A stretch of DNA of 39,564 bases from a virus: the IMG/VR virus record IMGVR_UViG_3300027917_000087, positions 1 to 39,564 of that record; one strand, 5' to 3'. Shown here in pieces: positions 16,201 through 39,319 of this stretch (position 1 is the first letter of the stretch; each line of letters starts with the position of its first letter). The notes under the pieces were generated by a model that was not told the DNA's origin, did no database searches, and saw nothing but the letters and a program-made list of their open reading frames with translations. Position numbers and translations under genes: made by a program.

Positions 16201-19200
16201 AAGAAGAACTTGCCTATGATCCAGAGAGGGGGATTTTCAGGACCAGATTGCAAGAGCCAAGCGGTGAAATGGTTTGGAAAGCAGTTAGAGGGGAGAAAGT
16301 AGAGCTGAAAGAAGGGTATGACTTCTTTGCTTATAAGGATGCTGAATCTGAAACGTGGCATGTTATCGAACAATCGACAGGTTTAGCCATAACTGGAAGA
16401 GGTATTTACAGTAAGGCAGAAGCGGTCAAACAGGCGAACAACAATCTTGCAAAAGCAGGGGATGAGAATTTTAGAAGAGCCGTAGAAGCAAAATTAGAAG
16501 AAATTAAGCAAGAAGAAGGTAGGCTTGAAGAACCTCTTTCCAATTATAGCTTACTGAAAGAAGATGCAAAAACAGCCTTCGGTGGTGAAAAAAGGCAAGC
16601 TAGAGTCATAGAGAATATGGCGAAACAGTTAGATCTCTTCGAGAAAGAAACAGGAATTAGAGGACTAACTGAAAGCGTTAAGGCTTATAAGGGTAGCCTA
16701 GCGGATACTCTTAGGAAAAACAAAAGCGTTGATTTGAGAGGGTATAGACTTACCAAGGGGGACGAAGCAAGGGAAATTGCTGAACTGTTCCAGATATACA
16801 GAAACCCCAAAATGGAAATAATGCACGAAATATACACCGATAAAGAAGGAAAGGTCTTAGCTCATACGGCGGTTACTTCTGGTGCAGTTAATTATGTAAG
16901 GTTTAAAGACACTTTACGGAACATCCAGGAAACCAAGAGAAGAATGAAACGTCTTGGAGCTAATAAAGTTCATTTTCTTCACAACCATCCTTCGGGAACA
17001 TCCTGGATGAGTGAATCAGATAAGCAAATGGGATCCTATATGAAATTGCATCTAAAGGGGAAGATGGGGGAGTATGTCGTTATAGATCATGGTACTTTTG
17101 CCTATCTAACAAAAATAAATGTTAAGAGATCCCCAGGGGTATTTCCGAATTTTTCCTACAATGTAGAACAGGACCAAAAACCGTTTCAGCTAAAGAGGGG
17201 GGCTGGAATGTGGATGGTGAGCAAGAAGAAATCCCCTGCTCTAATTGGTCCTGATGTTGTAGCTGGATTTGCCAAGGATTTAATGAAGAAAAACAGAACG
17301 GTAGTGGCTTTCATAGATTCACAGAATCAGGTGCAGGGATGGGCTTCTGTCAGCGACTATACTTTCCTGATGAAACCGAACTGGAAGGAAATAATAAGGG
17401 ATTACACGAAAGCCCACGATGCTACGTCAGCTATTCTCGTTACAGGGTCTAAAGAGGTTAGGAACCTGGGTAATGCTCCAGTAGGAGATGTTCTTACAGA
17501 AATACTATATGACAGGGGAGAGGACGTATCGCCAGGGGAAAGATTTGAAAGCGTAAGAAGAAGCGAACCGCAGAGATTTGATGATACTAGAAAGTGGATC
17601 CACGAGCAAAAGACAGCAAGAAGGCTTTTTGAGGAACAAGCCCCCTACGGTGAGGACCTAACGCCAGAACAAGCGGAAGCCCTGGCAAGGGCAGAAGAGC
17701 AAGTGGCAAAGATGATGCACGATGCTAGACAGCGAGGGATCAGATTCGGTAGAAAGTATTTAAAGAGCCTGGGCTATACACCTAAACAGATCACACAGAT
17801 CTTAAAGGTGAAAAGATTCATGCAGAACAAACAGCAGAAACTAGGAACGCCGAGGGAAAACGCCGTTAATGTTTTGGAAATGCACTTGCGGTCAGCAGAA
17901 AGATTAAAGTCGTTAAAGAAAACAAATTATCCTAGACTCTACAGGACCTTAAAACGTGGGGTAGTTGATGTAAGCGGCAATATAAAACCGAGAATGTTGA
18001 AGGCTGGTGAACCTGGGAAAGTAGCAGTTATAAGACACGATCTATCGGCTGGGGCTACTCCCTGGGCTCAAAGGCAGTTTGAGGAAGCGACAGATAGGAT
18101 CTACGGAAAAGGCGAGTGGGGCAAAGAGCTTTCCAGGCAAAATGAAGAGATCCTAAATATGGTTATCAATTCCCGAAGGATCGTAACGATTGATAACTAC
18201 AAAGAAGGTATGAAGCATCCCGAAGGATACACAGGGGACCATCACGCTGATTATCTTGACTACGAGAACTTTAAACACGCTTTTAAGAACGCAAAGACAC
18301 CAGATGGAAAACCCCTTGATATGGATATATCAGAGGACTTCTATCGGGAACTTATAGAGAGATCTAATCTCTGGTTTGATGAAATGAACAGGATGCTTAA
18401 AAAGCTCTATGATAAAGGATTGATTTCAGAAGCCAGCTACGATGCTATGGTGGAGATCGGTGAATATGCTCCCCGATTCTTTATCCAGCACATAGATCCC
18501 GATAAGTCCTACACCTTCGGCGGTGGAAAGACCATTACCGTTTCTAGTAGCGGAATTAAGAAACTGGAAAGCGGCAGTTATGAAACCCTGGAGCTCGATT
18601 CAAGGTTGTTACTCTATCAGGTCATAGCCAGGACCGAGAACAGGATAGCCAAAAATGATGCTAATTTGGCACTATGGGAGCTCGCAGAGCAAGTTCCTGA
18701 AAATGGACTTGTGAGAAAAGCGGTCATTCAGAGCTACACGCCGAAGGGTGTTCCGAACTTCGAGAAAACCCCAGCCAGACACGAAGAAATTGATGTAATG
18801 ATAGACGGTCAGAGAAGAAGGATGTTTATGCCTGATGAATGGGCAAGAGAGTGGGTGATGCGAGATCCTTCTATAGATCAGGGCGTAGCTAACTGGATTG
18901 GCTGGCTGTCAGGAGCTAATCTTCTTAGACCTATGGCAACTGGTATGTTCGCTCCAGAGTTTTTCATTACCAATCTAGCCAGGGATGCGGCTCACTTATG
19001 GGTAGTTACCGATACTTTCTCCAGCTTCCTTCCCTATGCTATGGCACAGTACGGAAAGGCTATTAAGGCGGTTTACAAAGATGCTCTCGCTAAAACAGGA
19101 CTCTATGAACTATATATAAAATACGGCGGCGGCATGAATTTCCTCACAAAACAGGGTCATTTCACTCCGACAAAGTATTCAAAGACCCTGGAGAAATTTG

Positions 19201-20597
19201 AGAAAATAGGCTCCTACCTGGGCGAATCGTCAGAAATCTTAAACCGTTTGGCTCTAATGCAGATGGAAATGTGGAAGGCTGGCGTGGATAAAATGGAAGA
19301 GGGTAGCCCTGAATGGGAAAGGGCGGTCCAGGAAGCCGTATGGGTAGCCAGGAACTATATCGACTTCTACCAGGGTGGGTCCTGGGCGAAGATGCTCGAT
19401 ACAGGAGTTCCCTATTTAAACGCTGGGATCCAGGGGACCAGGGGGATTGCCAGGGCGGTTAATCAGGATTGGAAGAAAACCACCTGGAAGATCTCACAGC
19501 TTATGATGCTCGCTACTGGTCTATATCTTGCCAACTACTTAATAAACAAGGAAACGCTTGACAACATATCCGAAAGCGATCAGATAAGGTACTGGTGTAT
19601 AACCATGCCTGGGAAGATAACCGACTCGAAGGGGAATAAAAGGGGCTGGTATTTTATTGTTGCCAAGGATCAGGGACAGAGATTTTTTGCACAGATAGCA
19701 GAGCAATCTATGAGAGCTATGATGGGTGAGCCAGTAATGTGGAACAATCTGCAAGAAGGGTTTAAAGATATGATCCCTGTTATTCCTACTCAAATGCTAC
19801 CGCCGACAATAGATGCTATCTATGGCTACGCAAATAACAAAGATTTTTGGCTTCAAAAGGAAATTTGGCGAGATAAGTTCAATCCTGTAGGAAGGATCGA
19901 GCCAAGGTTAGAATATACCGACTACACCCATCCAGCTCTGGTTGAGTTCGGGGATGTAACAAACACTTCGCCAGAACGGTTGAAATATATCCTGGAACAG
20001 TTTTTTACCTATGGAAATGTGTTTACTTCTATAGTGGGCGGTGCGACAAGAATGATGATGAGAAAACTCCCAGGAAATGAAGGAGATAAGGTTTTGGAGG
20101 AAATTTTAGCTAGACAGCCTGGGATCAGAAAATTAGTAAGGCTTACCAGGGAAACCCCCGATATTGAGAGAAGAGAAGCTAACGATGCTTTACGAAGGAT
20201 TTATAGCAGAAGGTTTGAACAGAGAAGAAAGGTTATGAATCTATCCGAAGAGTATTATGCACAAGAGAAACAGAAAATGCCAGAAGCAGAACAAACGGCG
20301 AAACTGCTCAATTCCTATATCGCAGAACAGCCAGAAGGCGATAGGAAGCGGCTTACAGAGATGTTTGAGGATTATCCCTTGTATGATGATATTCCAGACA
20401 GGGGATGGTGGCTATCCCTTCGGGGTATGCCAGCAGAAGCAAAAGCGTATGTGTATTTCAGCAAATGGGTGAGAGCCAATCCAGAGAAACGAGAGCAACT
20501 GGAGAGCATGAGATCCTACATGCCTGGAATGAAAAGTGATGCCTTTGTGGAAGAATTTTCAAAACTTTATGAGAAATCGAAGGAACTATCAAAATGA
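7257..20597 (+). CDS. giant polyvalent protein: DNA methyltransferase, SNF2-like helicase, JAMM/RadC-like domain, LPD38-like C-terminus
   Basis: The 4446-residue product starts behind GGAGGGTTTAAAG. Residues about 113-185 match a domain common in phage virion proteins (RFQEWYKKHAKKWG, YDYRGAY, ETGHW). A hydrophobic patch lies at about 300-330, then a long Pro/Glu/Lys coiled region to about 1330. An N6-adenine-type methyltransferase follows, with SAM motif LEPSAGIGHF at 1475 and catalytic NVPF at 1541-1544. Next is a helicase/ATPase of the DarB-like type: Walker A GAGKT at 2169-2173, DEAQ at 2331-2334, TATP at 2383-2386, QREGRILRQGN at 2662-2672. An intact JAMM motif follows: Glu3191, His3242, His3244, Ser3252, Asp3255. 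The last 700 residues resemble LPD38 (PEFFITNLARD near 3900). Such proteins are packaged and injected to protect phage DNA. The stop overlaps the next start (ATGA). Confidence 0.9.
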   Translation: MPLRLEEQYPYYADRIANAREEGFSEDEVFNWIQDRVKEALDEGYDEQEIYDFMGSPQGFQPLSEADLSGADAISGAEQPPPEPIEPYSIIRPDAITEADPGQGPIRTRHQLEPEDEIRFQEWYKKHAKKWGLDPDPDAFEHKYDYRGAYLNGVEPDETGHWASAFKDPDHPNRFVDGVDTITGLTADDFNPDLPGAELRQAEREEENGVINRIKELGELPPEQILPGGLGLIVEEGIKQGKKVLTRKPDEEAARAQNIIGIAKAYDIPIERARKDYDRIIEGLGLKGGPETIPGLAEEMAMKFMLVPIAAGIIANPLTIPSVVLGVGAFMALDEAESYIVQKTQGEDYKALAGRNFSELLPEEANEFARESLDLLSFIAKIQALRMSQGTTAKIRSGTQKLFERFTKEVVTEYGIPRKYTFRPSEVDAVFRRAKDQEVNPQAEAVIKDLMGRKGLSRKEVQEAIDKGLEVEITAEKIVKIADKPYWGKIKSLFGIKPFSREISTTAGGKIEAKIPRRALPPGKGKKGEKPPTQPPSKPPEAPTEEVKPTLEEDLGTLGEKPPEVRLSGKIGKIDTYGRLRRTKTRLTKQIEELPEEKRAPLLEQLETKEKELFEKLTPEERAKFEKKPKGKKKEPIVTEPPKEPEPELTDEEIAQRAIAEVEALDEAPFKEMGRLAGVEFRSFYPTPEGPTVSFHDPESGGDLGLPLKDLTFEGLQAEIKRVREYLPELTEEEKAARKETLGETPIEDLLKPEDPIEKDLLSGTGSLSDRLNSAMDRVDADESLSPQQKKEKKTALQVKYNEIADRAQGITEVPPLTEEQRQRIKEEVSGLQAEFEGLKDRIAKAKRSELAGIFTEIVDAGWDENSRNELEKLIDKRLEETQDDLAEAPFTEGERQDLIKKVLEFRKDIRGKDKERFAEKVTDEDLVKMSEAIDRVKERVDQDIINRLEEIAKGSEKKNLLRQFRRDYERGALPAPKDFKDHPELMEAWGGKEGVIKAYKELDPESPIEEFLEGKDFKAAITGDDPIGKNAEGKQLYEDEKGVRSYYEDNFKVTEPVTILPTGETFVEGRRDEYKTVEELEKEKRDTENPIVVQFTDENNIQLAVRKLKDGQYGVTISDLDAGEGLGTVTKFKDKAAALKMFDSEKEQMIKRQTPREKTAEPLKMNDEDLIEWLKKEKRPTYPSEDLVSLIRYPDQQNAPLALEKIKRYLHENENAYKEYKEKMGEFPELAFLPEQYEVAQMIYNRLTKGPKSDIKEGVKEPKDAESIGQRDTEALGGKPPETGEAVEGEGEGEGVLPEPTGEGGRAGGKPVEEGAEPRPSERGGKGAVLPTKRKGPAKTRGAPQLRPGNNYSITSPTEKESITNVGTEVERYDRNIEAIKLLKELEASGKKATPDQQKVLVRYVGWGGLPKVFDRWGQANWVQRGKELEELLTEEEYDAARRSTPNAHYTSPKVIDIIYDALKQIGFKGGKVLEPSAGIGHFIGMMPPELMGRSKFTGIELDPITGRIAQQLYQGHDIRVSGYEDVRLPNNFYDVAVGNVPFGDYKVYDPEYKGLKVPIHDYFFIKTLDKIKPGGIAALITSRYTLDKQDTKVRKMIADKADLVAAFRLPSSAFKGIANTEVVTDILILRKKVPGEVFKGEDFIKTKETKLKKDEKQGNVQTNEYYHNNPGMILGTESLTGSMYADSTYTVEGILKEEQRTYGKEILGNLISKLPTNVYVEGFAKPPAEPSPDDIIGVKGDVKEGGYKVEGGKIYQREGDNMVKVDFPAGNIVRAKRLIAVKDAVRDLIRVQLQTEEGERRPGDSFERAQKELNRLYDDFVKKHGYVNSKANYPLLQGDPDVPILLAIEKYDPKTGKAFKTPFFTERTIQKYTRPEKADTAGEALLISLNEKGRVDFERMTELTGKNPETLQAELKGQIYKNPDGETWEIADEYLTGDVKSKLEAAREAAKYDEDYITNVEALEKNQPPDVPAEEITTRLGVTWIPEQDYKNFIMEILESQAAEVKVDYVPTGGWIVRARRGRSGTWSSTQYPQSEQSRLKYATKERTTLKLLDAAFNSRNVVIKIRDDDGKVIGTDQVATAENMRIIQELQDLFKEWVLKDQERRSRLSAKYNEEMNRIRPRTSFDGSHLTLPGSNPGIVMRKHQKDGAWRIITSKRNTLLEHEVGAGKTYTIIAAAMESKRLGLVKKPMITAFKHQVPDFQKSIYELYPAARALVPTQKDFTPQNRRKIQAQITTGDWDIIVLSHEQAEKLSMSKKAQRDYIEEQLAEVEFALSDAKEQGLRKSDPTVKQIEKAKLRLMAQLKELMDSPKDTGVTFEELGVDMLLVDEAQKYKNLQYMSTRSRVSGLGNPQGSKRANDLYMKSRYINKLNGGRGIVFTTATPVTNSMVEMYSVLRYLYPEALEQMGVKHFDAWANQFGQDVTSLEVEPTGQGFRMNTRFRRFVNMPELMQVYREVSDIQTQEMLKLPRPQIKGGAQEAVAVESSDAQKEFVDELVKRAEDVRSGGVDPRDDNMLKITTDGRKAAVDMRLVDPTAEDYPDSKLNKAVDKIYEIWKKTEGNKSTQLVFSDLGTPNTKGFNVYADMKSKLVRLGIPKNEIAFIHDATTEAQKQSLFDDVVDGKIRILFGSSEKMGTGMNVQKKLIALHHMDPPWTPALIEQREGRILRQGNENDEVEIFRYATTGTFDAYMWQTLENKQGFLGQVKRGDISRTVEDIDGRALSFAEMKAIASGDPIVRERIETEMRVNELRNLHKAWQRKRWGAEDTIARGPHKIEGYQTEIDMMEKDIALREKNPLVEVDGVKQFEIMVGEQRFADRVEGGEAFIKFYQEQKPIKPDEDSVLAGKYRGFELRLKKFKKLAPRLFLKGDATTYEVGLPWMIDEDVEKADPSGIMTRIENEANRIDTYIQNGKDRIKIIEEEVEAAQKSLEEPFKHEQELREKEKKMDELLEELEPGDEEVGDTEGILERKRQIGEEKLEGEEELAYDPERGIFRTRLQEPSGEMVWKAVRGEKVELKEGYDFFAYKDAESETWHVIEQSTGLAITGRGIYSKAEAVKQANNNLAKAGDENFRRAVEAKLEEIKQEEGRLEEPLSNYSLLKEDAKTAFGGEKRQARVIENMAKQLDLFEKETGIRGLTESVKAYKGSLADTLRKNKSVDLRGYRLTKGDEAREIAELFQIYRNPKMEIMHEIYTDKEGKVLAHTAVTSGAVNYVRFKDTLRNIQETKRRMKRLGANKVHFLHNHPSGTSWMSESDKQMGSYMKLHLKGKMGEYVVIDHGTFAYLTKINVKRSPGVFPNFSYNVEQDQKPFQLKRGAGMWMVSKKKSPALIGPDVVAGFAKDLMKKNRTVVAFIDSQNQVQGWASVSDYTFLMKPNWKEIIRDYTKAHDATSAILVTGSKEVRNLGNAPVGDVLTEILYDRGEDVSPGERFESVRRSEPQRFDDTRKWIHEQKTARRLFEEQAPYGEDLTPEQAEALARAEEQVAKMMHDARQRGIRFGRKYLKSLGYTPKQITQILKVKRFMQNKQQKLGTPRENAVNVLEMHLRSAERLKSLKKTNYPRLYRTLKRGVVDVSGNIKPRMLKAGEPGKVAVIRHDLSAGATPWAQRQFEEATDRIYGKGEWGKELSRQNEEILNMVINSRRIVTIDNYKEGMKHPEGYTGDHHADYLDYENFKHAFKNAKTPDGKPLDMDISEDFYRELIERSNLWFDEMNRMLKKLYDKGLISEASYDAMVEIGEYAPRFFIQHIDPDKSYTFGGGKTITVSSSGIKKLESGSYETLELDSRLLLYQVIARTENRIAKNDANLALWELAEQVPENGLVRKAVIQSYTPKGVPNFEKTPARHEEIDVMIDGQRRRMFMPDEWAREWVMRDPSIDQGVANWIGWLSGANLLRPMATGMFAPEFFITNLARDAAHLWVVTDTFSSFLPYAMAQYGKAIKAVYKDALAKTGLYELYIKYGGGMNFLTKQGHFTPTKYSKTLEKFEKIGSYLGESSEILNRLALMQMEMWKAGVDKMEEGSPEWERAVQEAVWVARNYIDFYQGGSWAKMLDTGVPYLNAGIQGTRGIARAVNQDWKKTTWKISQLMMLATGLYLANYLINKETLDNISESDQIRYWCITMPGKITDSKGNKRGWYFIVAKDQGQRFFAQIAEQSMRAMMGEPVMWNNLQEGFKDMIPVIPTQMLPPTIDAIYGYANNKDFWLQKEIWRDKFNPVGRIEPRLEYTDYTHPALVEFGDVTNTSPERLKYILEQFFTYGNVFTSIVGGATRMMMRKLPGNEGDKVLEEILARQPGIRKLVRLTRETPDIERREANDALRRIYSRRFEQRRKVMNLSEEYYAQEKQKMPEAEQTAKLLNSYIAEQPEGDRKRLTEMFEDYPLYDDIPDRGWWLSLRGMPAEAKAYVYFSKWVRANPEKREQLESMRSYMPGMKSDAFVEEFSKLYEKSKELSK
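12830..12854 (+). terminator. intrinsic-terminator-like hairpin inside the giant gene
   Basis: AAAGGCGTTTAAAACGCC followed by TTTTTTT forms a G/C-capped stem (GGCGTTT/AAACGCC region) with a 7-T run on the + strand. It falls at about codon 1858, in the linker between the methyltransferase and helicase parts, and codes for KAFKTPFF. The form is that of a Rho-independent terminator. Translating ribosomes would normally suppress it. Confidence 0.5.
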
Positions 20598-29661: not shown

Positions 29662-30276
29662 ATGGAACAAAAATTAGATTTTACGGAAGATGTACTTCGG
29701 CATTGTGGCGGTAGATTAACTACACACGATGCCGATTTGCTTTTTAAGACCGCAAGCGAGATAGAATCAAAGAACATATTGGAGATCGGCTCGATGGACG
29801 GATGCTCCACTATGATCCTTGGTTCTATTGCCAGGGAAACAGGGGGGCTAGTTCAATGTATCGAGCCAGCCCCGAAACAAAAATGGCGGCACAACATTGA
29901 ACGGTTGAAGCTACAAAAGTGGGTGCAGATGCACTTTGCTACAAGCCCCTGGCTTCCGATTGAAACTATCATTAATCTTTGTAAACCGCCAATAAAAGAT
30001 AAAATGACCCCTTTGGATTTCCTCTTTATTGATGGGGATCACCGTACAAGGTGGGCTATTGTTGACTACCATTTTTATATGCCTTATGTACGCATGGGTG
30101 GCAGAATCGGCTTTCACGATTGGTGGGATCAGCATGATGCTGGAAGATGGGTTAGAGAAGCGGTTGAGATCATCATGCGAGATGATGAGCCATTTCTTAA
30201 AATGGTAGGAGAAACGAGGAATAAAAGGGGCTTGATTGTCTATGAAAAAATCGGAGATCACAACAGGCACAGATAG
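29662..30276 (+). CDS. class I SAM methyltransferase, Methyltransf_24-like
   Basis: The 204-residue protein starts behind AAAGGAGTGTGTT. It has SAM motif I LEIGSMDGCST (residues about 40-50), then an acidic-loop residue in CIEPAPK. The hallmark LFIDGDH (about 119-125) is followed by DYHFYMPYVRMGGRIGFHDWW. This is the layout of small-molecule or sugar O-methyltransferases of the Methyltransf_24 type found beside glycosyltransferases, not of DNA methyltransferases. It opens the glycan-enzyme cassette and overlaps the next gene by 35 nt. A likely job is capping or decorating a sugar, with the substrate unknown. Confidence 0.8.
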   Translation: MEQKLDFTEDVLRHCGGRLTTHDADLLFKTASEIESKNILEIGSMDGCSTMILGSIARETGGLVQCIEPAPKQKWRHNIERLKLQKWVQMHFATSPWLPIETIINLCKPPIKDKMTPLDFLFIDGDHRTRWAIVDYHFYMPYVRMGGRIGFHDWWDQHDAGRWVREAVEIIMRDDEPFLKMVGETRNKRGLIVYEKIGDHNRHR

Positions 30277-30994
30277 AAAAGGCTGGGATAATATAGGCGT
30301 TCTCGTTACCTCTCATCCTAAACAGCAAAAATTCTGGAATCAGGCTTTCGCTACCTGGGCTGGGTTCCCTCATTATATGCTCCTGGGCTATGACGATGAA
30401 AACATTGATGGTGTCCCTATTGAACAATTCATGCCACCTGTAAAGGCGATATTTTATACTGGCTACAAAGCTGGGTATTTAGGGCATTTCAGGGGGGAAC
30501 TTCAACAGCTACAGATCGGGGGTAGAATCCTGGAGCAACAGGGGAAGGAGTTTTTCTATAAAACTGCCGCCGATAACGCATGTTATCGCTGGAGGAACAT
30601 TCCATCCATGCACAAGGTCCTGAAAAAATTTGATCTTGTAATATGCGGCACGACACAGATGTTTGGTTATGTTTGGGCGTTAAACAAGATTATGAAGATC
30701 TGGCACGAAAAGATGAAAAGCGGCGGTGCGGAGCTTTTTGTTTATAGCCAGATCAAGGCACATGGAATTAGAGTGAGATATGAAAAAGCCCCATTATGGA
30801 ATGACGTTTTGGGGCTTGTTCATATCCAGGGGGAATGTGCATTAAACCAGGGAACAAACGTCATGCGTACCTGGATAGATGGGCAGAAATGGACACCAGA
30901 CTTTAAACATCGGGACCTAACCCCTAAACGACTAGATCACTATAAAGATACGGACCTGATATTCCCCAATGAAGATACTTTACGAGAGAAATAA
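30242..30994 (+). CDS. putative glycosyltransferase-like protein
   Basis: The 250-residue protein starts at ATG 30242, inside the end of the methyltransferase gene. An upstream TTG at 30236 is an alternative. It shows a strand IGVLVTSHP, an acidic YDDEN near residue 45, GHFRGELQQLQIGGRIL, and FYKTAADNACYRW with an acidic pair that could bind a metal-nucleotide. ICGTTQMFGYVWALNK and a C-terminal IQGECALNQGTN follow. This order of elements is reminiscent of GT-A-type glycosyltransferases in polysaccharide clusters, and the neighbours support that, but no diagnostic signature is decisive. It overlaps the radical SAM gene by 26 nt. Confidence 0.45.
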   Translation: MKKSEITTGTDRKGWDNIGVLVTSHPKQQKFWNQAFATWAGFPHYMLLGYDDENIDGVPIEQFMPPVKAIFYTGYKAGYLGHFRGELQQLQIGGRILEQQGKEFFYKTAADNACYRWRNIPSMHKVLKKFDLVICGTTQMFGYVWALNKIMKIWHEKMKSGGAELFVYSQIKAHGIRVRYEKAPLWNDVLGLVHIQGECALNQGTNVMRTWIDGQKWTPDFKHRDLTPKRLDHYKDTDLIFPNEDTLREK

Positions 30995-31790
30995 GAGAAA
31001 CGCTGATAGGATAGTTCGTTGTTATTTGACCTTGGATTGCACTTCAAACTGTTCTTACTGTAGTGCTGGGGTTCCTCATATAGCCTGGAGCGTAAAAAAG
31101 GTATGGATCCCAGCCGAAGAATGGGCAGAGGGATTAAACAGGAGAAATCGTGCGGCGGTCCTGGCTGGGGGAGAGCCTTTCCTCTATCCTGAATTTGGCA
31201 AGCTCATAAGCCTTATCAATAGGACTTATCCATGCTGGATATACACTAACCTGGAGCTGGACCCGAAACCCTTGATTGAGAACGCTACTAAACCGTTTCC
31301 GATTCTGGCAAGTTTGCATCAATGGTGCGATTTTGAATTATGGTATAAGCACGTTCAGGCTCTTTGGGATGCTGGGCATTTCTTGAAGTTCCATATAGTT
31401 AAAGCTGGTAATTACAAAAAAGTTACCGATTTCCTTGAAGCTAAAGGAATTGTAGGAAAATACAGCACAAAACTATGTGGGGATCAGAATGTAGGATTAA
31501 AGTCGAGAGGGGAAGCTACGAATAAACAATACCCTAAAGTAGATTGTTCCAGTAGAATTTACCTCTTTGGACCTGATGGATTCAGGTATTCATGCGTGAG
31601 CAGAATGGGAAGGCAAGAACAGCTATGGAAACAGGAACATATCACAGATGAAGATTCTGGTGATTGGATCTTTACCTCTTGCGATAACTACGGATTGTGT
31701 ACTGGATGCGATAACAATATAGAGGGAAAAGTGGTTTATGGTAACGATAGCCCCAACGATACCGATAAAGCAACCGACAAAGAAGGTTAG
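30969..31790 (+). CDS. radical SAM protein with SPASM/twitch-like C-terminal cysteines
   Basis: The 273-residue protein carries the radical SAM 4Fe-4S motif CxxxCxxC at Cys24, Cys28 and Cys31, and the SAM-binding AGGEPFLYPEF at about residues 66-76. Six further cysteines (170, 193, 209, 238, 244, 247) include CX5CX2C at the C-terminus, consistent with an auxiliary Fe-S cluster of SPASM or twitch type. Such enzymes modify peptides or carbohydrates by radical chemistry. In this cassette a glycan or a virion peptide is the likeliest substrate, which is inference. The protein is short for a full SPASM enzyme. Its start lacks a strong Shine-Dalgarno, so coupling to the upstream gene is probable. 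Confidence 0.82.
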   Translation: MKILYERNKRNADRIVRCYLTLDCTSNCSYCSAGVPHIAWSVKKVWIPAEEWAEGLNRRNRAAVLAGGEPFLYPEFGKLISLINRTYPCWIYTNLELDPKPLIENATKPFPILASLHQWCDFELWYKHVQALWDAGHFLKFHIVKAGNYKKVTDFLEAKGIVGKYSTKLCGDQNVGLKSRGEATNKQYPKVDCSSRIYLFGPDGFRYSCVSRMGRQEQLWKQEHITDEDSGDWIFTSCDNYGLCTGCDNNIEGKVVYGNDSPNDTDKATDKEG

Positions 31791-32589
31791 CGGAAATCAC
31801 ATTATCGGGTTTACGGCATCAACTGGCAGAAGCGGAACAATGTATATCTCTAAAATGCTGGCTATGGCGAATGATTGTTACACTTCCCACGAGTTCCTGG
31901 TAAAAGAGATTCGCCAGCCAATCAATGAGCTCTTTTCTGATGCGAAAGACAAAGGGATCCAACAAGCGGAAAGGATCTGGAATGATAAAAGCGTACCACA
32001 GCTAAACGCTTATTCGGACAAGCCGTACATTGAAAGCGATGCGAGATTTCTAACCGTAGCGTATTATTTTGCTCTTCGGGACATAGAACATTCCCGACTT
32101 AGGATAATAAACCTTTACAGGGATAAAGCGAGGATTGCCCTGGGAAATGCGAAGGCTGGGGGGTATAGGAAGGATCACAGGAAGCACAAAGTTAATGTTC
32201 ACACATTGGTCTATCCTTTAGGATGGACGAATGTAACCCTGCTCCCGAAACCCTTCGAGGAAATGAGTTCGATGGAGCTGGCGGTATGGGGAGTCTTTGA
32301 AACTATAGAACGCCAGAGAAGGTTTAAAGAAGTGTTTCCCGATGTTCCTACTTTCGATTGGGACATGGACACAGATTCCCCTAGTATCAGTAGGTGGATG
32401 GATCTCTTGTCCTTCCTGGGACTCAAAATGACACAAAAGCTGGCAGATGCGATAGGGAGAAACCCTATGATAAATTCTACGTTTCATAGGAACGGACCTT
32501 TCCAACATACCCTGGAAGAAGCCCAGGAAGCGGTTGACAATCACAAGGTAGTATTTAACCCAAACCCTAGACCTAAAGGATTTTTATGA
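31738..32589 (+). CDS. sulfotransferase (PAPS-dependent type)
   Basis: The 283-residue protein has the 5'-phosphosulfate-binding loop of sulfotransferases, ASTGRSGTMYIS (about residues 27-38), close to the N-terminus. A strand-helix pair RLRIINLYRDKARIAL follows, matching the 3'-phosphate-binding region, where an Arg after a strand contacts PAPS. A basic stretch (GGYRKDHRKHK) and a helix-rich C-terminal half complete the fold. The enzyme would transfer sulfate from PAPS to a sugar or tyrosine-type acceptor. It starts inside the end of the radical SAM gene (53-nt overlap). Its stop overlaps the start of an APS-kinase-like gene, which could supply its donor. Confidence 0.7.
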   Translation: MVTIAPTIPIKQPTKKVSGNHIIGFTASTGRSGTMYISKMLAMANDCYTSHEFLVKEIRQPINELFSDAKDKGIQQAERIWNDKSVPQLNAYSDKPYIESDARFLTVAYYFALRDIEHSRLRIINLYRDKARIALGNAKAGGYRKDHRKHKVNVHTLVYPLGWTNVTLLPKPFEEMSSMELAVWGVFETIERQRRFKEVFPDVPTFDWDMDTDSPSISRWMDLLSFLGLKMTQKLADAIGRNPMINSTFHRNGPFQHTLEEAQEAVDNHKVVFNPNPRPKGFL

Positions 32590-33002
32590 TCGTTTGGATA
32601 ATGGCACAGAAGAGGACAGGGAAGAGTACCCTTGCGAGGATCCTTAAACCATACTTTGAAAATTGTGTAATTATTGGCGATCCTGTAAAAGAAGCGGTCC
32701 TAAAGAATATCCCAGCCGAGGAAAGACCGAAGGCTATTTACACCGCCTATGCTAGATTAGCCAAGGTCTTTGATCGGCAGGGCTGTAATGTTTTCGTTGT
32801 CGGTGGCGTGGAAAAGAAAGAATGGAGAATAGAGCTAAAAAAGATTATTGATTTTAAGACAATCTATCTTTATCGAGAAGCAGTTCCAGAAGTGGTTGAC
32901 TTCGAGCCGCTTGATGGATGGGAAGAACATAAATACTTGAAAATCACCAATATGGATATTAGGGAAACGGTGGAGTATTCGCTAGAGTACCTCAACAGCT
33001 AA
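32586..33002 (+). CDS. small P-loop kinase, possible APS kinase
   Basis: The 138-residue protein begins with a strand IVWIMAQ and a P-loop ending GKST (Gly12-Thr15). The first P-loop glycine is replaced by Ala7. The later segment, FDRQGCNVFVVGGVEKKEWRIELKKI, follows the order seen in adenylylsulfate kinase (helix, strand, then Arg-containing helix), and FKTIYLYREAVPEVV is consistent. It is shorter than typical CysC (about 200 residues), and a nucleotide or gluconate-type kinase is an alternative. The ATGA overlap with the sulfotransferase gene is the best argument for PAPS supply. Confidence 0.5.
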   Translation: MIVWIMAQKRTGKSTLARILKPYFENCVIIGDPVKEAVLKNIPAEERPKAIYTAYARLAKVFDRQGCNVFVVGGVEKKEWRIELKKIIDFKTIYLYREAVPEVVDFEPLDGWEEHKYLKITNMDIRETVEYSLEYLNS

Positions 33003-33024: not shown

Positions 33025-34170
33025 ATGCCAGAGCAAACACAAATAGAAGAGCCACAAGGTAAGGTAGCATTTTACGGACCCTGGATAGGGGAGTTTGGTT
33101 GGGAATTAATGGCATGGCAAGCGTGGTGTAGGCTCAATGCCAGAAATTTTGACAAAGTGTATGTGTGTAGTTTTTCCGATATGGCTCCACTTTATGAGGA
33201 TTTCGCTACATTCATACCGCATGGTTACAAGAAAAGACATCTTGATTGGACAGATACTTCCAATGTTCAAATTGAGATACCAGCAGACGTTACCACAAAG
33301 GTAGCTCCCTTTAAGAAATATAAGCTCCCTGCACAGCATTTTATAACCTTCGGGGAAAGGACCAGAAGTGTTAAACCCCGATACCTCATTCACGCCAGGG
33401 GGATAAACAAGGGCGGCAAGAACTATCCACTCGATAGGTGGGAACATTTAGCTGGATGTATCGGTGATAATGTAGCTTCGGTAGGAACCCTACTGGACCA
33501 TCACATAAAAGACACAGAGGATTTAAGGGGGCTTCCCTTGAATACCCTGATGGATGAAATGGCAAATGCCAATGTGGTGATCGGTCAATCTTCGGGTGTA
33601 ATGCACTTGGCGGCTTTGTGTGGAGCTCGTTTAGTCGTGTGGGGGGATCCTAGAACTTATTTTGGCGAATCCCTGGACCAGAGGTATCATAAAACGTGGA
33701 ATCCCTTTAAGGTCCCTGTAAGATTTATCCCTCATCCCGAATGGGATCCAGATCCAGATTTAATCTTAGAAGCGATTATTACCCCCTGGAATAGACCGAA
33801 GATTCAAATGGCACAGCCGCCAGATATTGAGCAACAGGTGGCGAAGGCGGTCCAAGAAGGTGGGAAGGTCCAGGTCCCCAGGGAATTGAGAGATATTCTG
33901 AAAAGGGCTGTAGAAAGTAACAGGGCTATGGTTACTGTTCATTGGATGGAAGGAGAAACTTTAAAACACTATTGGACTACCAATCATTTCCCTGTAAATG
34001 AAATGATCCCCTCTATGGAGCATATAAAAGGTGATATGAAGAAGGGGGGGGTTAAGGAGAACAAGATAATTCACGCTCCAGTAGAAAGGAACTACACGCC
34101 GCCAGAGCCACCGCCGATAGAGGGTGGTCCACCAGAAGAGGAAGCCCTGGAGCCTGGGAAATGGATCTAA
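33025..34170 (+). CDS. GT9-like (heptosyltransferase-type) glycosyltransferase
   Basis: The 381-residue protein starts after GGAGGAAAAG. It begins FYGPWIGEFGWELMAWQAW, a GT-B N-terminal glycine loop. The donor-site region ANVVIGQSSGVMHLAALCGARLVVWGDPR (about residues 181-210) is typical of GT9/ADP-heptosyltransferase-like enzymes. Residues from about 270 onward are an extra helical domain, and the last 35 residues are Pro/Glu-rich and disordered (TPPEPPPIEGGPPEEE). The enzyme should transfer a nucleotide-activated sugar. Both acceptor and sugar are unknown. It overlaps the next gene by 10 nt. Confidence 0.72.
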   Translation: MPEQTQIEEPQGKVAFYGPWIGEFGWELMAWQAWCRLNARNFDKVYVCSFSDMAPLYEDFATFIPHGYKKRHLDWTDTSNVQIEIPADVTTKVAPFKKYKLPAQHFITFGERTRSVKPRYLIHARGINKGGKNYPLDRWEHLAGCIGDNVASVGTLLDHHIKDTEDLRGLPLNTLMDEMANANVVIGQSSGVMHLAALCGARLVVWGDPRTYFGESLDQRYHKTWNPFKVPVRFIPHPEWDPDPDLILEAIITPWNRPKIQMAQPPDIEQQVAKAVQEGGKVQVPRELRDILKRAVESNRAMVTVHWMEGETLKHYWTTNHFPVNEMIPSMEHIKGDMKKGGVKENKIIHAPVERNYTPPEPPPIEGGPPEEEALEPGKWI

Positions 34171-36251
34171 TAAAGGTAGAACTTAGAAACGGTAATGCCC
34201 TGGGCGATATTTTGATGATGACTTGCGTTGTCAGGGACTTTAAGAAGCAGTATGCGGATAGGTTTTTGGTGCGTGTAAAGACGAAATGTGCTCATGTTTG
34301 GGACCATAACCCCTATTTGAGCGATTTCGAGGAATATGATATTTCTTGCAATTTAGGTCCCCTGAAAGCGACAAACGGATCTAACACGAGTGGGCTCCAC
34401 TATGCCAATGGATTCAGGCTTTCCCTGGAGCAAAACATAAATCTCCCCATTAACCAGGGACATATAAAGCCAGATCTTCATTTGTCCGATGCAGAAAAGA
34501 ATCAACGATGGATAGATGGAAGATACTGGATAATAGTAGCTGGGGGGAAAGATGATTTTACAACTAAATGGTGGGTGCAAGAACGCTGGCAGAAAGTTGT
34601 CGATGCCCTTCCCTGGATCACATTTGTCCAGGTAGGGGAGTTAAAAATAGACCATCACCACAAGCCCCTGGAAGGGAAAAACGTCATAAATCTCCTTGGC
34701 AAAACCCAGGATCCAGAAACAGGGCTTAGAGATCTGTTCAGCCTTTTTTATCATTGTGATGGATCGGTGGGGCTTATCTCCATGCAAATGCACTTAGCGG
34801 CGGCTTTTGATAAGGCTTGTGTGGTGGTAGCAGGGGCGAGGGAGCCAAGATCCTACGAGAACTATAACGATCATGTGTATCTCACTAACCAGGGGACGTT
34901 ACGGTGTAAAAACCATTGTGAAAACTGCAAGCATTACCATGAAGCTATCGCCTTAAAGAAGAAAGAGAAGCATTGTTCAATAGTCAACGGTAAGATCCCC
35001 CAGGATCTTTTTTACAGTAAACAACTATGCCCTGATTACGATCCGATAAATCCTACCCTTCGGTACATTTACGGATGCTGGAAGAAGGGGATTAATAGTT
35101 GTTCCAATAACGTAAAAATTAATGGGGAAAGATACGCTAAGTGCATAGCGTTAATTCAGCCAGAGGATGTTATCAAGGGCATTGAATCTTACTATAAAAA
35201 TGGGGCTCTTACGCCAATCGAGAAGCCAGCTACTTTACAAGTAACCTTTACCCCCAAGGAAACCAGCAGTAAACAAACGCTGGTATGGGATAAACCGATC
35301 TTTAAGATGTTCGGGAACGCACATAACTATATAGGCGGCGAAAAGTCTATGACCTGGATAATGCGAGCTATGCAAAAGAAGGGTTATCACGTTCAGTTTG
35401 TCCCTTCCAAGCAAGTGTGCTCTACCTTTAGAGCCAACATTCCAGGGGTAGAAATTACAAACCGCCTTACGGATCCTTGCGAGATATTTATGCTCTATGC
35501 CAACGATACCGTCTATAGTTTTCAAAAGGAAGAGTATGCTATATTTGAGCACATAACCGCCGAAAAGAAAGTTATGATGCTCAATTACAAGATTGGCGGT
35601 GCGGCTAAAGCGGAATGGGCTAAAACCTGGGACCTTTACGGATTTCTTTGTAGTCAAATGGAAGCGGATTATCTAGGGTCCGTCCCAGGGGTTAATACTT
35701 TCGTGCTTCCCCCAGCAGTAGATATAGATGAATTTCTCAACCAGGGAGAGATTACCTACAATAGAACACTTCACATGGTACGGCATAGCTCCCAGGGGGA
35801 CAAAAAATACGCTCACGATGAGAATGAAATAATAGAAGCGATCAGAGAGAAAAGCCCTACAACTCTGTTTTCTTATATGCCAGGACCTACTTTTTTGAGA
35901 GATATGCACAAGGTGGCTAATTTATATTTCAGCCAGATCCCTGTGATAGAATTTCTGAAAAAGGGAACGTGCTACTGGTATAGACTTCCCGAAGGTTATT
36001 CGGACCAGGGACCGAGGACTATAGTTGAAGCTATGGCAATCGGGCTACCCTGTCTTGCGGATCCCAGGTGGGGAGCGAAAGACAGAATAACCGAGGAAAC
36101 AGGCTGGTTATGCGAGAGCTTCCAGGAGTATGTGGATACTATTGTTTCGCTTGATGCGAAGATAGTTCAGCATAAAGGAGAAGCATCGAAAAACCGAGCC
36201 AGGGAGCACTTTCACCCTGATAACTGGATAAAGGCGATTGTAGAATTTTAA
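34161..36251 (+). CDS. two-headed glycosyltransferase: GT9-like plus GT4-like
   Basis: The 696-residue protein joins two GT-B enzymes. Residues 1 to about 345 are GT9-like: a start RNGNALGDILMMTCVVRDF, a central GGKDDFTTKWWVQERWQKVV, and SVGLISMQMHLAAAFDKACVVVAGAREP near 204-231. A Cys-rich block (about 250-330) recurs in phage and bacterial GT9 relatives. Residues about 375-696 are GT4-like, with a GNAHNYIGGEKSMTWIMRAM start and the donor-binding EGYSDQGPRTIVEAMAIGLPCL near 611-632. Fusion suggests that two consecutive sugar additions are coordinated. It ends the cassette just before a strong terminator. Confidence 0.75.
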   Translation: MDLIKVELRNGNALGDILMMTCVVRDFKKQYADRFLVRVKTKCAHVWDHNPYLSDFEEYDISCNLGPLKATNGSNTSGLHYANGFRLSLEQNINLPINQGHIKPDLHLSDAEKNQRWIDGRYWIIVAGGKDDFTTKWWVQERWQKVVDALPWITFVQVGELKIDHHHKPLEGKNVINLLGKTQDPETGLRDLFSLFYHCDGSVGLISMQMHLAAAFDKACVVVAGAREPRSYENYNDHVYLTNQGTLRCKNHCENCKHYHEAIALKKKEKHCSIVNGKIPQDLFYSKQLCPDYDPINPTLRYIYGCWKKGINSCSNNVKINGERYAKCIALIQPEDVIKGIESYYKNGALTPIEKPATLQVTFTPKETSSKQTLVWDKPIFKMFGNAHNYIGGEKSMTWIMRAMQKKGYHVQFVPSKQVCSTFRANIPGVEITNRLTDPCEIFMLYANDTVYSFQKEEYAIFEHITAEKKVMMLNYKIGGAAKAEWAKTWDLYGFLCSQMEADYLGSVPGVNTFVLPPAVDIDEFLNQGEITYNRTLHMVRHSSQGDKKYAHDENEIIEAIREKSPTTLFSYMPGPTFLRDMHKVANLYFSQIPVIEFLKKGTCYWYRLPEGYSDQGPRTIVEAMAIGLPCLADPRWGAKDRITEETGWLCESFQEYVDTIVSLDAKIVQHKGEASKNRAREHFHPDNWIKAIVEF

Positions 36252-36282: not shown

Positions 36283-36317
36283 AAAAAACCCTTGATATTA
36301 GTATCAGGGGTTTTTTT
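36283..36317 (+). terminator. strong bidirectional intrinsic terminator
   Basis: AAAAAACCCTTGATA (36283-36297) and TATCAGGGGTTTTTTT (36302-36317) form a long stem with one G-U pair and a TTAG loop, flanked by A and T runs on both sides. It closes the glycan-enzyme cassette and would stop transcription from either direction. The following GGAAGGA is the binding site of the Fe-S protein gene. Confidence 0.88.
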
Positions 36318-36330
36318 ATGGAAGGACCTC

Positions 36331-36639
36331 ATGGAAATAAAGCCGAAGTGTAAGAAATGCGGTGGTTGTTGCAAATCACCGTTTATCGCTTTTGAGGGCA
36401 TTGACCTGGATAAAGGCGATCCGCTAGAGCTGGTTAGATACTATAACTACCATAATTTTGATCCCATGCAGAAGGTAATCGGGGGGAAAAGGGTCCTTTG
36501 TATAAGGATCCCCATCCCTTGCAATTACCTGGATGAAGAAACAGGGCTTTGTGTGATTTACGATAATCGTCCCATTGTTTGCCGAGATTATTTTTGTGAG
36601 AAAGCAATCGGGGATGCAATTAAAGTAGTAGGAGAATAA
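36331..36639 (+). CDS. YkgJ-like Fe-S (or Zn) cluster protein
   Basis: The 102-residue protein starts at ATG 36331 behind GGAAGGACC. Extending the frame to 36292 would place the start inside the terminator. It has the cysteine layout of the YkgJ/UPF0153 family: CKKCGGCCK at the N-terminus, PCNYLDEETGLCVIYDNRP in the middle, and VCRDYFC at the end. Members bind a metal or Fe-S cluster and often accompany radical SAM or modification genes. It lies between the glycan cassette and the Ser-rich adhesin, 1 nt before the latter. Its partner here may be the radical SAM enzyme, which is inference. Confidence 0.82.
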   Translation: MEIKPKCKKCGGCCKSPFIAFEGIDLDKGDPLELVRYYNYHNFDPMQKVIGGKRVLCIRIPIPCNYLDEETGLCVIYDNRPIVCRDYFCEKAIGDAIKVVGE

Positions 36640-36640
36640 A

Positions 36641-39319
36641 GTGGCTTTTACCGCTACGACTAACAAAGTTACGTCAGGACCGAGCAACAGCGATCCTCTT
36701 GTTCAGGCTTTTAACTGTTTTGCGAACACAAGGATACTAGCCCTTTTTATATGGTCCAACAATAATGCACAGAGGGCAGGGGGGGCTCCTTCGTTTAACA
36801 GCGTTCCGATGCAACAGGCTGGAACTACGAGGATAGCTGGTAACGAAGTTTCTTCTGAATTATGGTACATGCTAGATCCCCCTACTGGAACGGCATACGA
36901 TATTAGTGTCCCTAATACCAATGCGGATGATATTGGTATTCATGCTCAAACCTTTCAGGGATCGACAAAGGCTGTATTGTTCGCTTCGGGTGGGACTACT
37001 ACTGATAGTTCTACTCCATCGGTAACGCTAAATAGCGTTCCTGATGGATCGGCTGTAATGTCAGGTAATGCAAGTGGTTATAAAGACACCCCTACCGCAT
37101 ATTCCCATACGCAAATTTATGCGTATGATGGTCCAAACTGGAGTTCAGCTAGTCAGTATGAGATAAAAAGCGGAACAGGAAACACTACGCATCAATTCAC
37201 CTACGGTGGCTCTGATGATGTTGCCATGTGTGCGGCGGCTTGGGAAGAATCTTCGGAGTCAAGTTCATCGAGCTCGATGAGTTCAAGTTCGAGTTCTCTT
37301 AGCTCTTCCTCTTCCTCTTCGTCCTCATCTTCTTCGGAATCCAGCTCTTCAATCGCTTCCTGGTTTATTCGGGAGTATTTTGAAGATGCTACAGACTACG
37401 ATGAAACATTTTGGACAAGTTATGCGGATGGTACAAACATTGTTGATCCAAACTACGATGCTTCTCTTGTTACTGGTGCTCCTGATGAGTGGGGGAGTGA
37501 ATGTTGTAGATTTGCGAGGGTACAAACCTCTGGTGGTGCGTACATTTATACACCACCAACATTTTCTGGTCAGGGGGGAAATACCGAACAGACCCATTAT
37601 GTCAGAATGGATTTTATCATACAGAGTGCTAGCTGGAACTCTGATGATGATCGCTTTTTGCTTTTCTCTACCTATGATGAAGGTACGTCCGTTTTTGGCA
37701 TATATGTTTGGTACAGTTCGGGAGTGTATAGGCTTACCGCTTTTTTTAAGGATGATTGGACCTTAAACTATTATGTCGGTCCAGCCATAACCACAGACCA
37801 GTTATATAGAATTGAAGCAAAATGGGATTTAAGCGATGAAACCTGGGAATGGAGAATAAACGGAGTAACGGAAGATCAGGGGTCTTTAACAGGATCGGCG
37901 TTAGACCACCAGCCCACTTCGTATTATTTTGGTGTTTTTGCAGGTATTGGATCATTCACCGCTAATATATTCGCCGATTTTGTTATAGCGAACAGGGTAG
38001 AATGGGACTACTCATCTTCGAGTGAATCCTCATCCTCTGGATATTCATCGAGCTCCAGCTCCAGTTCTTCGATTTCGAGTTCATCCTCTTCGAGTTCAAT
38101 CAGTTCCAGTTCATCCTCTTCCAGTTCTTCGATTTCGAGTTCATCCTCATCGAGTTCGGTTAGTTCGTCCTCATCCAGTTCTTCGATTTCAAGCTCTTCC
38201 TCTTCGAGCTCGATCAGTTCAAGTTCATCCTCATCTTCGCTTTCGAGCTCCAGTTCCAGTTCTTCAATTTCAAGCTCTTCCTCTTCGAGTTCGATCAGTT
38301 CAAGTTCATCGAGTGAGAGCAGTTCAAGTTCCAGCTCTTCTCTTAGTTCTTCAAGTTCATCATCTTCGATTTCCAGTTCCAGTTCATCAGAGTCGAGCTC
38401 TTCTTCATCATCGAGCATTAGCTCGTCAAGCTCATCGAGCTCTATTAGTTCCAGTTCGTCCTCATCCAGTTCATCAGAGTCGAGCTCGTCCTCATCATCG
38501 AGTATTAGCTCTTCCAGTTCAAGCTCTTCGATTTCGAGCTCTTCTTCTTCCAGTTCTATTAGTTCCTCATCTTCCAGCTCCAGTTCATCGGAGTCGAGCT
38601 CTTCCTCATCATCAAGCGAGAGCTCTTCCAGCTCCAGCTCATCAGAGTCGAGCTCATCTTCATCATCGAGTATTAGTTCTTCGAGTTCCAGTTCTTCGAT
38701 TTCAAGCTCGTCCTCTTCAAGCTCGATTAGTTCAAGCTCTTCTTCTTCCAGCTCTTCGATTTCGAGTTCGTCCTCTTCGAGCTCGATCAGTTCATCGAGC
38801 TCCAGTTCTTCACTATCGAGCTCTTCATCCTCTGAATCGAGTTCTTCAAGTTCGAGTTCTTTAAGCTCCAGCTCTTCAAGTGAAAGCAGTTCGAGTTCCA
38901 GTTCTTCGATTTCAAGCTCTTCATCTTCCTCATCATCGAGCGAGAGCTCTTCTTCATCGAGTTCATCAGCCATTCCCGATGTAGGAACAAGGTGCTGGGG
39001 GCATGACAACATAGATACTGGATTGGATGATTATGCTGATGATTTTTCTAACTGGAGTGGGACCGCTACTGCTTCTGGATCAGGGGACACCGAGATTCTA
39101 ACTGTTTTGGATAGTGAAGAAGGAATTTCAAACAAAGTTCAAACAGGAGCTAAAGAGCTTGTCATTGAGTATGACTACTACAGGACAGGAAGCGGTACGC
39201 CAGGAACGATTTACTACAAAACTGCCGCAACCGAGGGAGCTCTCGATGCCCAGGGCTGGACCCTTTACACTTCACATTTCACTTCCCTGGGATGGGTTCA
39301 GGTGAGGGTGCTTAATTAA
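36641..39319 (+). CDS. Ser-rich multidomain adhesin/tail fibre
   Basis: The 892-residue protein uses a GTG start behind AGGAGAATAAA, 1 nt after the YkgJ-like stop. Residues 1 to about 203 form a beta-sandwich common in phage adhesins (NTRILALFIWSNN, SSELWYMLDPPTG, AMCAAAWEES). A first Ser linker (about 204-237) precedes a LamG/concanavalin-like domain (about 240-455: WFIREYFEDATDYDETFWTSY, YRIEAKWDLSDETWEWRIN). A second linker of about 319 residues (458-776) is almost pure Ser in Ser8-X units. Residues 777-892 form a last beta domain. There is no signal peptide, in keeping with a virion protein. The Ser tracts are plausible O-glycosylation targets. Confidence 0.75.
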   Translation: MAFTATTNKVTSGPSNSDPLVQAFNCFANTRILALFIWSNNNAQRAGGAPSFNSVPMQQAGTTRIAGNEVSSELWYMLDPPTGTAYDISVPNTNADDIGIHAQTFQGSTKAVLFASGGTTTDSSTPSVTLNSVPDGSAVMSGNASGYKDTPTAYSHTQIYAYDGPNWSSASQYEIKSGTGNTTHQFTYGGSDDVAMCAAAWEESSESSSSSSMSSSSSSLSSSSSSSSSSSSESSSSIASWFIREYFEDATDYDETFWTSYADGTNIVDPNYDASLVTGAPDEWGSECCRFARVQTSGGAYIYTPPTFSGQGGNTEQTHYVRMDFIIQSASWNSDDDRFLLFSTYDEGTSVFGIYVWYSSGVYRLTAFFKDDWTLNYYVGPAITTDQLYRIEAKWDLSDETWEWRINGVTEDQGSLTGSALDHQPTSYYFGVFAGIGSFTANIFADFVIANRVEWDYSSSSESSSSGYSSSSSSSSSISSSSSSSSISSSSSSSSSSISSSSSSSSVSSSSSSSSISSSSSSSSISSSSSSSSLSSSSSSSSISSSSSSSSISSSSSSESSSSSSSSLSSSSSSSSISSSSSSESSSSSSSSISSSSSSSSISSSSSSSSSSESSSSSSSSISSSSSSSSISSSSSSSSISSSSSSSSSSESSSSSSSSESSSSSSSSESSSSSSSSISSSSSSSSISSSSSSSSISSSSSSSSSSISSSSSSSSISSSSSSSSLSSSSSSESSSSSSSSLSSSSSSESSSSSSSSISSSSSSSSSSESSSSSSSSAIPDVGTRCWGHDNIDTGLDDYADDFSNWSGTATASGSGDTEILTVLDSEEGISNKVQTGAKELVIEYDYYRTGSGTPGTIYYKTAATEGALDAQGWTLYTSHFTSLGWVQVRVLN
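37250..37351 (+). repeat. polyserine linker 1
   Basis: About 34 codons, nearly all Ser, with sparse Glu, Met, Leu and Ile, separate the N-terminal beta domain from the lectin-like domain. All six Ser codons are mixed, so the repeat is clear in protein but blurred in DNA. Confidence 0.85.
38012..38968 (+). repeat. polyserine linker 2, Ser8-X period
   Basis: About 319 codons encode Ser runs separated by single Ile, Glu, Leu or Val, most often eight Ser then one other residue (27-nt period). Near the start the runs read 9, 8, 10, 8, 8, 8, and later runs are 6, 8 or 10. TCN and AGY codons alternate irregularly, with recurring blocks such as AGTTCTTCGATTTCGAG. The region links the lectin-like domain to the C-terminal domain. 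Confidence 0.92.

Follow-up and report, generated by a model that had tools for sequence, protein, structure and literature searches.

The window, by which we mean the whole stretch of DNA analysed, comprises the 39,564 bases of IMG/VR record IMGVR_UViG_3300027917_000087, a fragment from a virus of bacteria. A major head protein (phrog_1357, 6e-61) and an endolysin (phrog_894, 2e-23) are encoded at its left end, and a single open frame of 4446 aa (7257-20597, + strand) lies within the structural region. The cassette considered here contains the following genes and features:

29662-30276, + strand: SAM methyltransferase (Methyltransf_24, 2.6e-15)
30969-31790, + strand: radical SAM protein (Radical_SAM, 1.4e-5, under the Pfam cut-off)
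31738-32589, + strand: P0001, sulfotransferase-fold protein of 283 aa, ATG start (from relatives and fold)
32586-32589, + strand: ATGA stop-start overlap of the P0001 and P0002 genes
32586-33002, + strand: P0002, lid-less APS-kinase-like P-loop kinase of 138 aa, ATG start (from a profile with relatives and a model)
33025-34170, + strand: possible GT9 (heptosyltransferase-like) protein, weak match (PF01075, 0.0035, sub-threshold)
34161-36251, + strand: possible two-part glycosyltransferase (PF01075, 8.1e-5, over the cut-off; PF13692, 0.0022, below the cut-off)

The sulfotransferase gene starts (31738) inside the 3' end of the radical SAM gene, and the kinase gene starts in the ATGA with which the sulfotransferase gene ends, confirming the overlap and translational coupling proposed in the preliminary description of this DNA. 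The N-terminal part of the 34161-36251 protein is GT9-like and its C-terminal part GT4-like; the glycosyltransferase assignments near the pair, made from these sequence matches, are weakly supported. The location of the pair in a glycan-type or tail cassette, beside tail-fibre-like genes, is supported by its methyltransferase, radical SAM and GT9-type neighbours, in agreement with the preliminary description. At the end of the cassette lies a gene for a putative metal-chelating protein with a CxxCxxCC motif (36292-36639, + strand; PF03692, 6e-10), and an 892-aa protein with long Ser runs interrupted regularly by single I, E or L residues is encoded directly after the cassette (36641-39319, + strand). 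Megablast gave no match for the cassette DNA.

P0001 had been described as a sulfotransferase with a TGRSGT loop, and its ORF, coordinates and loop were all confirmed. ASTGRSGT occupies residues 27-34, and TGRSGT itself (residues 29-34, first strand) corresponds to the [TK]xRSGT form of the 5'-PSB (5'-phosphosulfate) loop, with an HE pair (His51-Glu52) sixteen residues past it. The loop motif with this spacing to HE occurs once in the window and in none of 100 shuffles. Searching viral contigs for loop, spacing and HE together gave 78 loci, in almost all of which the motif lies in an open frame. Because loop and HE formed the search pattern, their columns are necessarily invariant among the collected relatives; the remaining columns were unselected. 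The nearest relatives, L071 and L075, are 24% identical to P0001 over about 190 residues and have the loop, a YFES-like strand, an R-x7-S segment and a WxxxE helix in matching order; L071 and another relative, L011, exceed the Pfam cut-off for Sulfotransfer_1. The nearest cellular relative found was a sulfotransferase of Rhodopirellula sp. JC639 (L217:5932-6825; 24% identity over about 230 residues), which has the CASTGRSGT loop in common with P0001 and is encoded in an exopolysaccharide-type locus with glycosyltransferases, with no kinase seen in the stretch examined. A profile built from P0001 and 43 viral relatives matched human TPST1 (8e-9) and the bacterial proteins Cpz8 and SgdX2 in the PDB. 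The AlphaFold model of P0001 is of moderate confidence (pLDDT 68, pTM 0.67), and its best match is a PAPS sulfotransferase domain (4gox; Z 14.2, 193 residues, 3.4 A). Other sulfotransferases gave Z values of 13.9 (4gbm) and 11.7 (TPST1, 5wri), whereas unrelated P-loop kinases gave values of 8-9. The predicted fold and the family relationships together identify P0001 as a P-loop sulfotransferase.

The second protein, P0002, had been said to resemble adenylylsulfate kinase, and this resemblance held in both profile and structural comparisons. A profile of P0002 and 39 relatives placed APS kinases first (7yq0, 1e-29), and APS kinases occupied the top ranks of Foldseek and VIA-align searches with the P0002 model (pLDDT 89.5). 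The comparison with CysC-type folds proposed in the preliminary description gave Z values of 16.9 to 2yvu and 16.8 to 7yq0; gluconate kinase followed closely at 15.6, so the fold alone cannot decide the substrate of P0002. P0002 matches a clear APS kinase from L029 (PF01583, 2.4e-20) at E 1e-5; a further pattern scan brought in short phage kinases, several of which it matches at E values between 1e-8 and 1e-6. Model and profile point to a short member of the APS kinase family without a lid. When the mini-kinase alignment was used, with a narrow pattern, to scan bacterial genomes, no relative passed confirmation.

The profile searches envisaged in the preliminary description thus recovered sulfotransferases and APS kinases when relatives were included, but no match above threshold for either protein taken alone. 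Single-sequence searches with P0001 found nothing in Pfam, PHROG or NCBIfam. Those with P0002 gave no PDB match and sub-threshold matches to PF01583 APS_kinase (E 0.081), the adenylyl-sulfate kinase PRK05541 (E 0.0067) and DNMK (0.0074). Neither protein matched anything in phage records, and close-relative scans were also empty. The assignment of both proteins therefore rests on their relatives and folds. DNMK, thymidylate kinase and AAA_18 were rejected as the family of P0002, because their matches were weak and partial and the profile and fold searches put APS kinases first.

The residues expected to handle the donor are partly conserved. In common with PAPS sulfotransferases (Sulfotransfer_1, _3 and _4; the TPST, Cpz8 and CurM/OLS domains), P0001 has the TGRSGT loop, a catalytic-type Glu (Glu52), Arg128 and the fold, but it differs from them in the 3'-PB site, in which the R-x7-S arrangement is broken by a Gly (Gly136) at the position of the Ser. 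This Ser is present in all 43 aligned relatives and in 72 of the 73 members of the wider motif set, P0001 being the sole exception; it is also kept in the Rhodopirellula protein. The PAPS 3'-phosphate site, on the absence of which the preliminary description would have abandoned its reading of P0001, is thus half present, with Arg128 retained and the Ser replaced. In both sulfotransferase-like proteins of L210 the 3'-phosphate Ser is replaced by Asn, and Gly136 of P0001 is followed by Asn137. Judging from L210, this Ser is no absolute rule across the sulfotransferase superfamily.

P0002 is likewise altered. It shares with APS kinase/CysC (PF01583, TIGR00455) the fold, the GKST of the P-loop (residues 12-15, including Lys13), the GD of the DGD motif, the APS-type Arg47, and Arg81, but is 138 aa long, rather than about 175-200 aa, and has no lid. 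The usual first Gly of its P-loop is Ala7, with Ala also found in L029. The DGD-xx-Arg motif is replaced by I-G-D-x-x-K (residues 30-35), with Asp32 kept, Ile30 for Asp and Lys35 for Arg; the N-R motif is lost, the usually aromatic position is Ile42 and a conserved Pro is Glu76. P0002 is the only one of 40 aligned sequences to differ at the first DGD Asp, Arg35 and Pro76 columns, whereas its Arg47, the second phosphosulfate Arg, is invariant in this alignment. In CysC from Mycobacterium tuberculosis, Arg483, Phe492 and the lid residues Lys562 and Phe576 contact APS; Arg559 also belongs to the lid (PMC4373884). Asp480, Arg483, Phe492 and Arg497 of this enzyme correspond to Asp32, Lys35, Ile42 and Arg47 of P0002, the equivalences being read from motifs rather than from a superposition. 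The lid segment (Arg559, Lys562, Phe576 region) has no counterpart in P0002 or in the aligned sister phage kinases. The sequence of P0002 suggests that the phosphosulfate-holding charges survive and that the APS pocket is altered.

The residues retained in P0001 (Arg128, Glu52) and P0002 (Lys13, Asp32, Arg47, Arg81) argue for a sulfation pair, and Gly136, the eroded APS pocket and the moderate model of P0001 argue against it. Given Gly136 and the altered kinase residues, PAPS chemistry is the best, but unproven, reading for the pair in the window. The joint loss of residues handling the 3'-phosphate keeps two kinds of alternative alive: another donor, or a transferase using host PAPS alongside a degraded kinase. 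Under the first, the pair would have co-diverged, the kinase phosphorylating a different nucleotide-activated group and the Ser-less transferase accepting that product rather than ordinary PAPS. Both members have changed exactly where a 3'-phosphate donor is written and read, sister pairs are largely unchanged there, and both reading frames are intact; however, the phosphosulfate-binding positions are still positive (Lys35, Arg47), other proteins of this kind can also lack the Ser (both L210 proteins have Asn, and Asn137 comes directly after Gly136 in P0001), and we know of no candidate alternative donor for such a pair. We regard this co-divergence as rather unlikely, and still less probable the fuller scenario in which the pair, derived from a module of mini-APS-kinase and sulfotransferase, jointly left PAPS for a different donor and decorates the virion or a glycan.

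Other viral records bear on the second alternative. Among 50 of them that have TGR[SC]GT sulfotransferases, only two also had a Pfam APS kinase. The majority of phage sulfotransferases must therefore draw on PAPS from the host, and an accompanying kinase is the exception. P0001 may also rely on the host in this way, P0002 having decayed or taken on another role; the presence of a kinase gene would then be no sign that sulfation matters more to this phage. This normal reliance on the host and the erosion of the P0002 pocket at otherwise nearly invariant sites favour such an explanation, but the P0002 frame is intact and ATGA-coupled, its fold is confidently predicted, and the P-loop, Asp32, Arg47 and Arg81 are kept. 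We attribute a low probability, about one in five, to this possibility.

The pairing itself recurs. A short kinase gene abuts a sulfotransferase gene in L117, L132, L136, L181, L029/L081 and L210, with one gene between the two in L206, and a single frame in L194 (6696-7637, + strand) matches APS_kinase (1.5e-22) and then Sulfotransfer_1 (9.6e-9). The sulfotransferase matches in L132 (E 0.0026) and L181 (0.018) are under the Pfam cut-offs. Overall, a sulfotransferase is beside, near or fused to the kinase in eight of the 11 contigs of the nearest P0002 relatives, versus a sulfotransferase match anywhere in the record for six of the 39 other mini-kinase records (Fisher p 6e-4, a descriptive value, the groups having been drawn after the loci were viewed and the record lengths being unequal). 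The pairing of kinase and sulfotransferase is no accident; several sulfotransferase subfamilies are represented among the partners in the sister modules, and such pairs may therefore have more than one origin. These modules have the same pairing as the window and the same short, lid-less type of kinase, but their kinases (L117, L132, L136, L181, L194, L081, L206 and L210) keep the APS-site residues, with DGDxxR and the following N motif, and most of the partner sulfotransferases retain R-x7-S. Like the window pair, they are often found among virion structural or glycan genes. The kinase adjoins capsid-, tail- or terminase-type genes in L117, L194, L200 and L136, as read from the neighbouring translations without profiles, and a tail-fibre-like protein of 938 aa is encoded immediately upstream of the L194 fusion frame. 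L081 has two methyltransferases beside its kinase-sulfotransferase pair, 35-39% identical to that encoded at 29662-30276 in the window (39% for one of them), together with a large protein reading as a glycosyltransferase; the cassette theme is thus common to two phage contigs that are otherwise dissimilar. In L210 (4619-5993, + strand), a tandem pair of GSGTRV sulfotransferase-like genes lies by genes for a mini APS kinase and for methyltransferase-like and radical-SAM-like proteins.

Other viral mini-kinases have different neighbours, often an NMNAT-like nucleotidyltransferase. HIGH nucleotidyltransferases of this type lie beside mini APS kinases in L200 (1814-2536, + strand), L132 (9770-10171, - strand), L081 (4983-5432, + strand) and L116 (1771-2148, + strand), and in L200 the two are fused. 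The identification of this protein as an ATP sulfurylase was rejected, as its best family and PDB matches are NMN adenylyltransferases; it may supply APS or some other activated group. A second abundant group of viral mini-kinases (L116, L150, L189, L215 and similar), with a KDYSxxGRRKN motif, is found near genes reading as carbamoyltransferase-, oxygenase- and halogenase-like and near the nucleotidyltransferase, with no sulfotransferase nearby. Cj1415 is a relative of APS kinase, kin to CysC. It belongs to the cj1415-cj1418 locus for O-methyl phosphoramidate decoration of the capsule (PMC3907429). The use of such a kinase in a capsule decoration pathway, and the many viral mini-kinases that adjoin a nucleotidyltransferase without a sulfotransferase, raise the possibility that P0002 is a cytidine diphosphoramidate kinase of the Cj1415 type. 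We consider this very unlikely, as the partner gene here encodes a sulfotransferase, the nearest relatives of P0002 pair with sulfotransferases, and family searches and motif scans recognised no nucleotidyltransferase in the window.

Viral cysC genes are usually catalogued as auxiliary genes of assimilatory sulfate reduction, and a review files them there without validation (PMC12713726). Such a role for P0002 is highly improbable: the gene is coupled to a sulfotransferase gene within a glycan/tail cassette, and the scanned genes of the window included no recognisable cysH, cysD or cysN. Nor did a family search and motif scan of the 39.6-kb fragment find any motif or family match for ATP sulfurylase, so APS would have to come from elsewhere, that is, from the host. 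The preliminary description had the phage carrying donor synthesis; the phage does carry a gene of the APS kinase family, but this would account for the last step only. CysNC and PAPS synthase fusions also combine sulfate-activation steps in a single polypeptide, but in them the fusion partner of APS kinase is ATP sulfurylase, whereas in L194 the partner is the sulfotransferase.

We therefore favour the reading of the pair as a phage sulfation module in which the kinase makes PAPS and the transferase uses it, and give it an even chance of being correct. P0002, as a minimal lid-less APS kinase, would convert APS made by the host into PAPS by phosphorylating the 3'-OH, and the translationally coupled P0001 would then transfer the sulfate of PAPS. 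The likeliest acceptor is a sugar or protein made or modified by the cassette with its methyltransferase, radical SAM and GT9-type proteins. The analysis establishes the folds and families of both proteins, the gene coupling, and the recurrence and fusion of such pairs in other phages; catalysis, the use of PAPS by this diverged copy and the choice of acceptor are inferred. That the pair would make PAPS from APS and use it had also been the central proposal of the preliminary description; the families and the module agree with it, but Gly136 and the altered APS pocket leave it unestablished for this copy.

Phage sulfotransferases have been described as being of unclear function (PMC10580990), and our targeted literature searches turned up no account of a module combining kinase and sulfotransferase in phages, although one may exist elsewhere. 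The recurring pairing and the one fusion indicate that at least one viral cysC clade belongs to donor-plus-transfer sulfation modules, of which the window copy is a natural variant with both donor-handling sites changed. The proteins are small, and the idea of a donor-plus-transfer module is directly testable with them.
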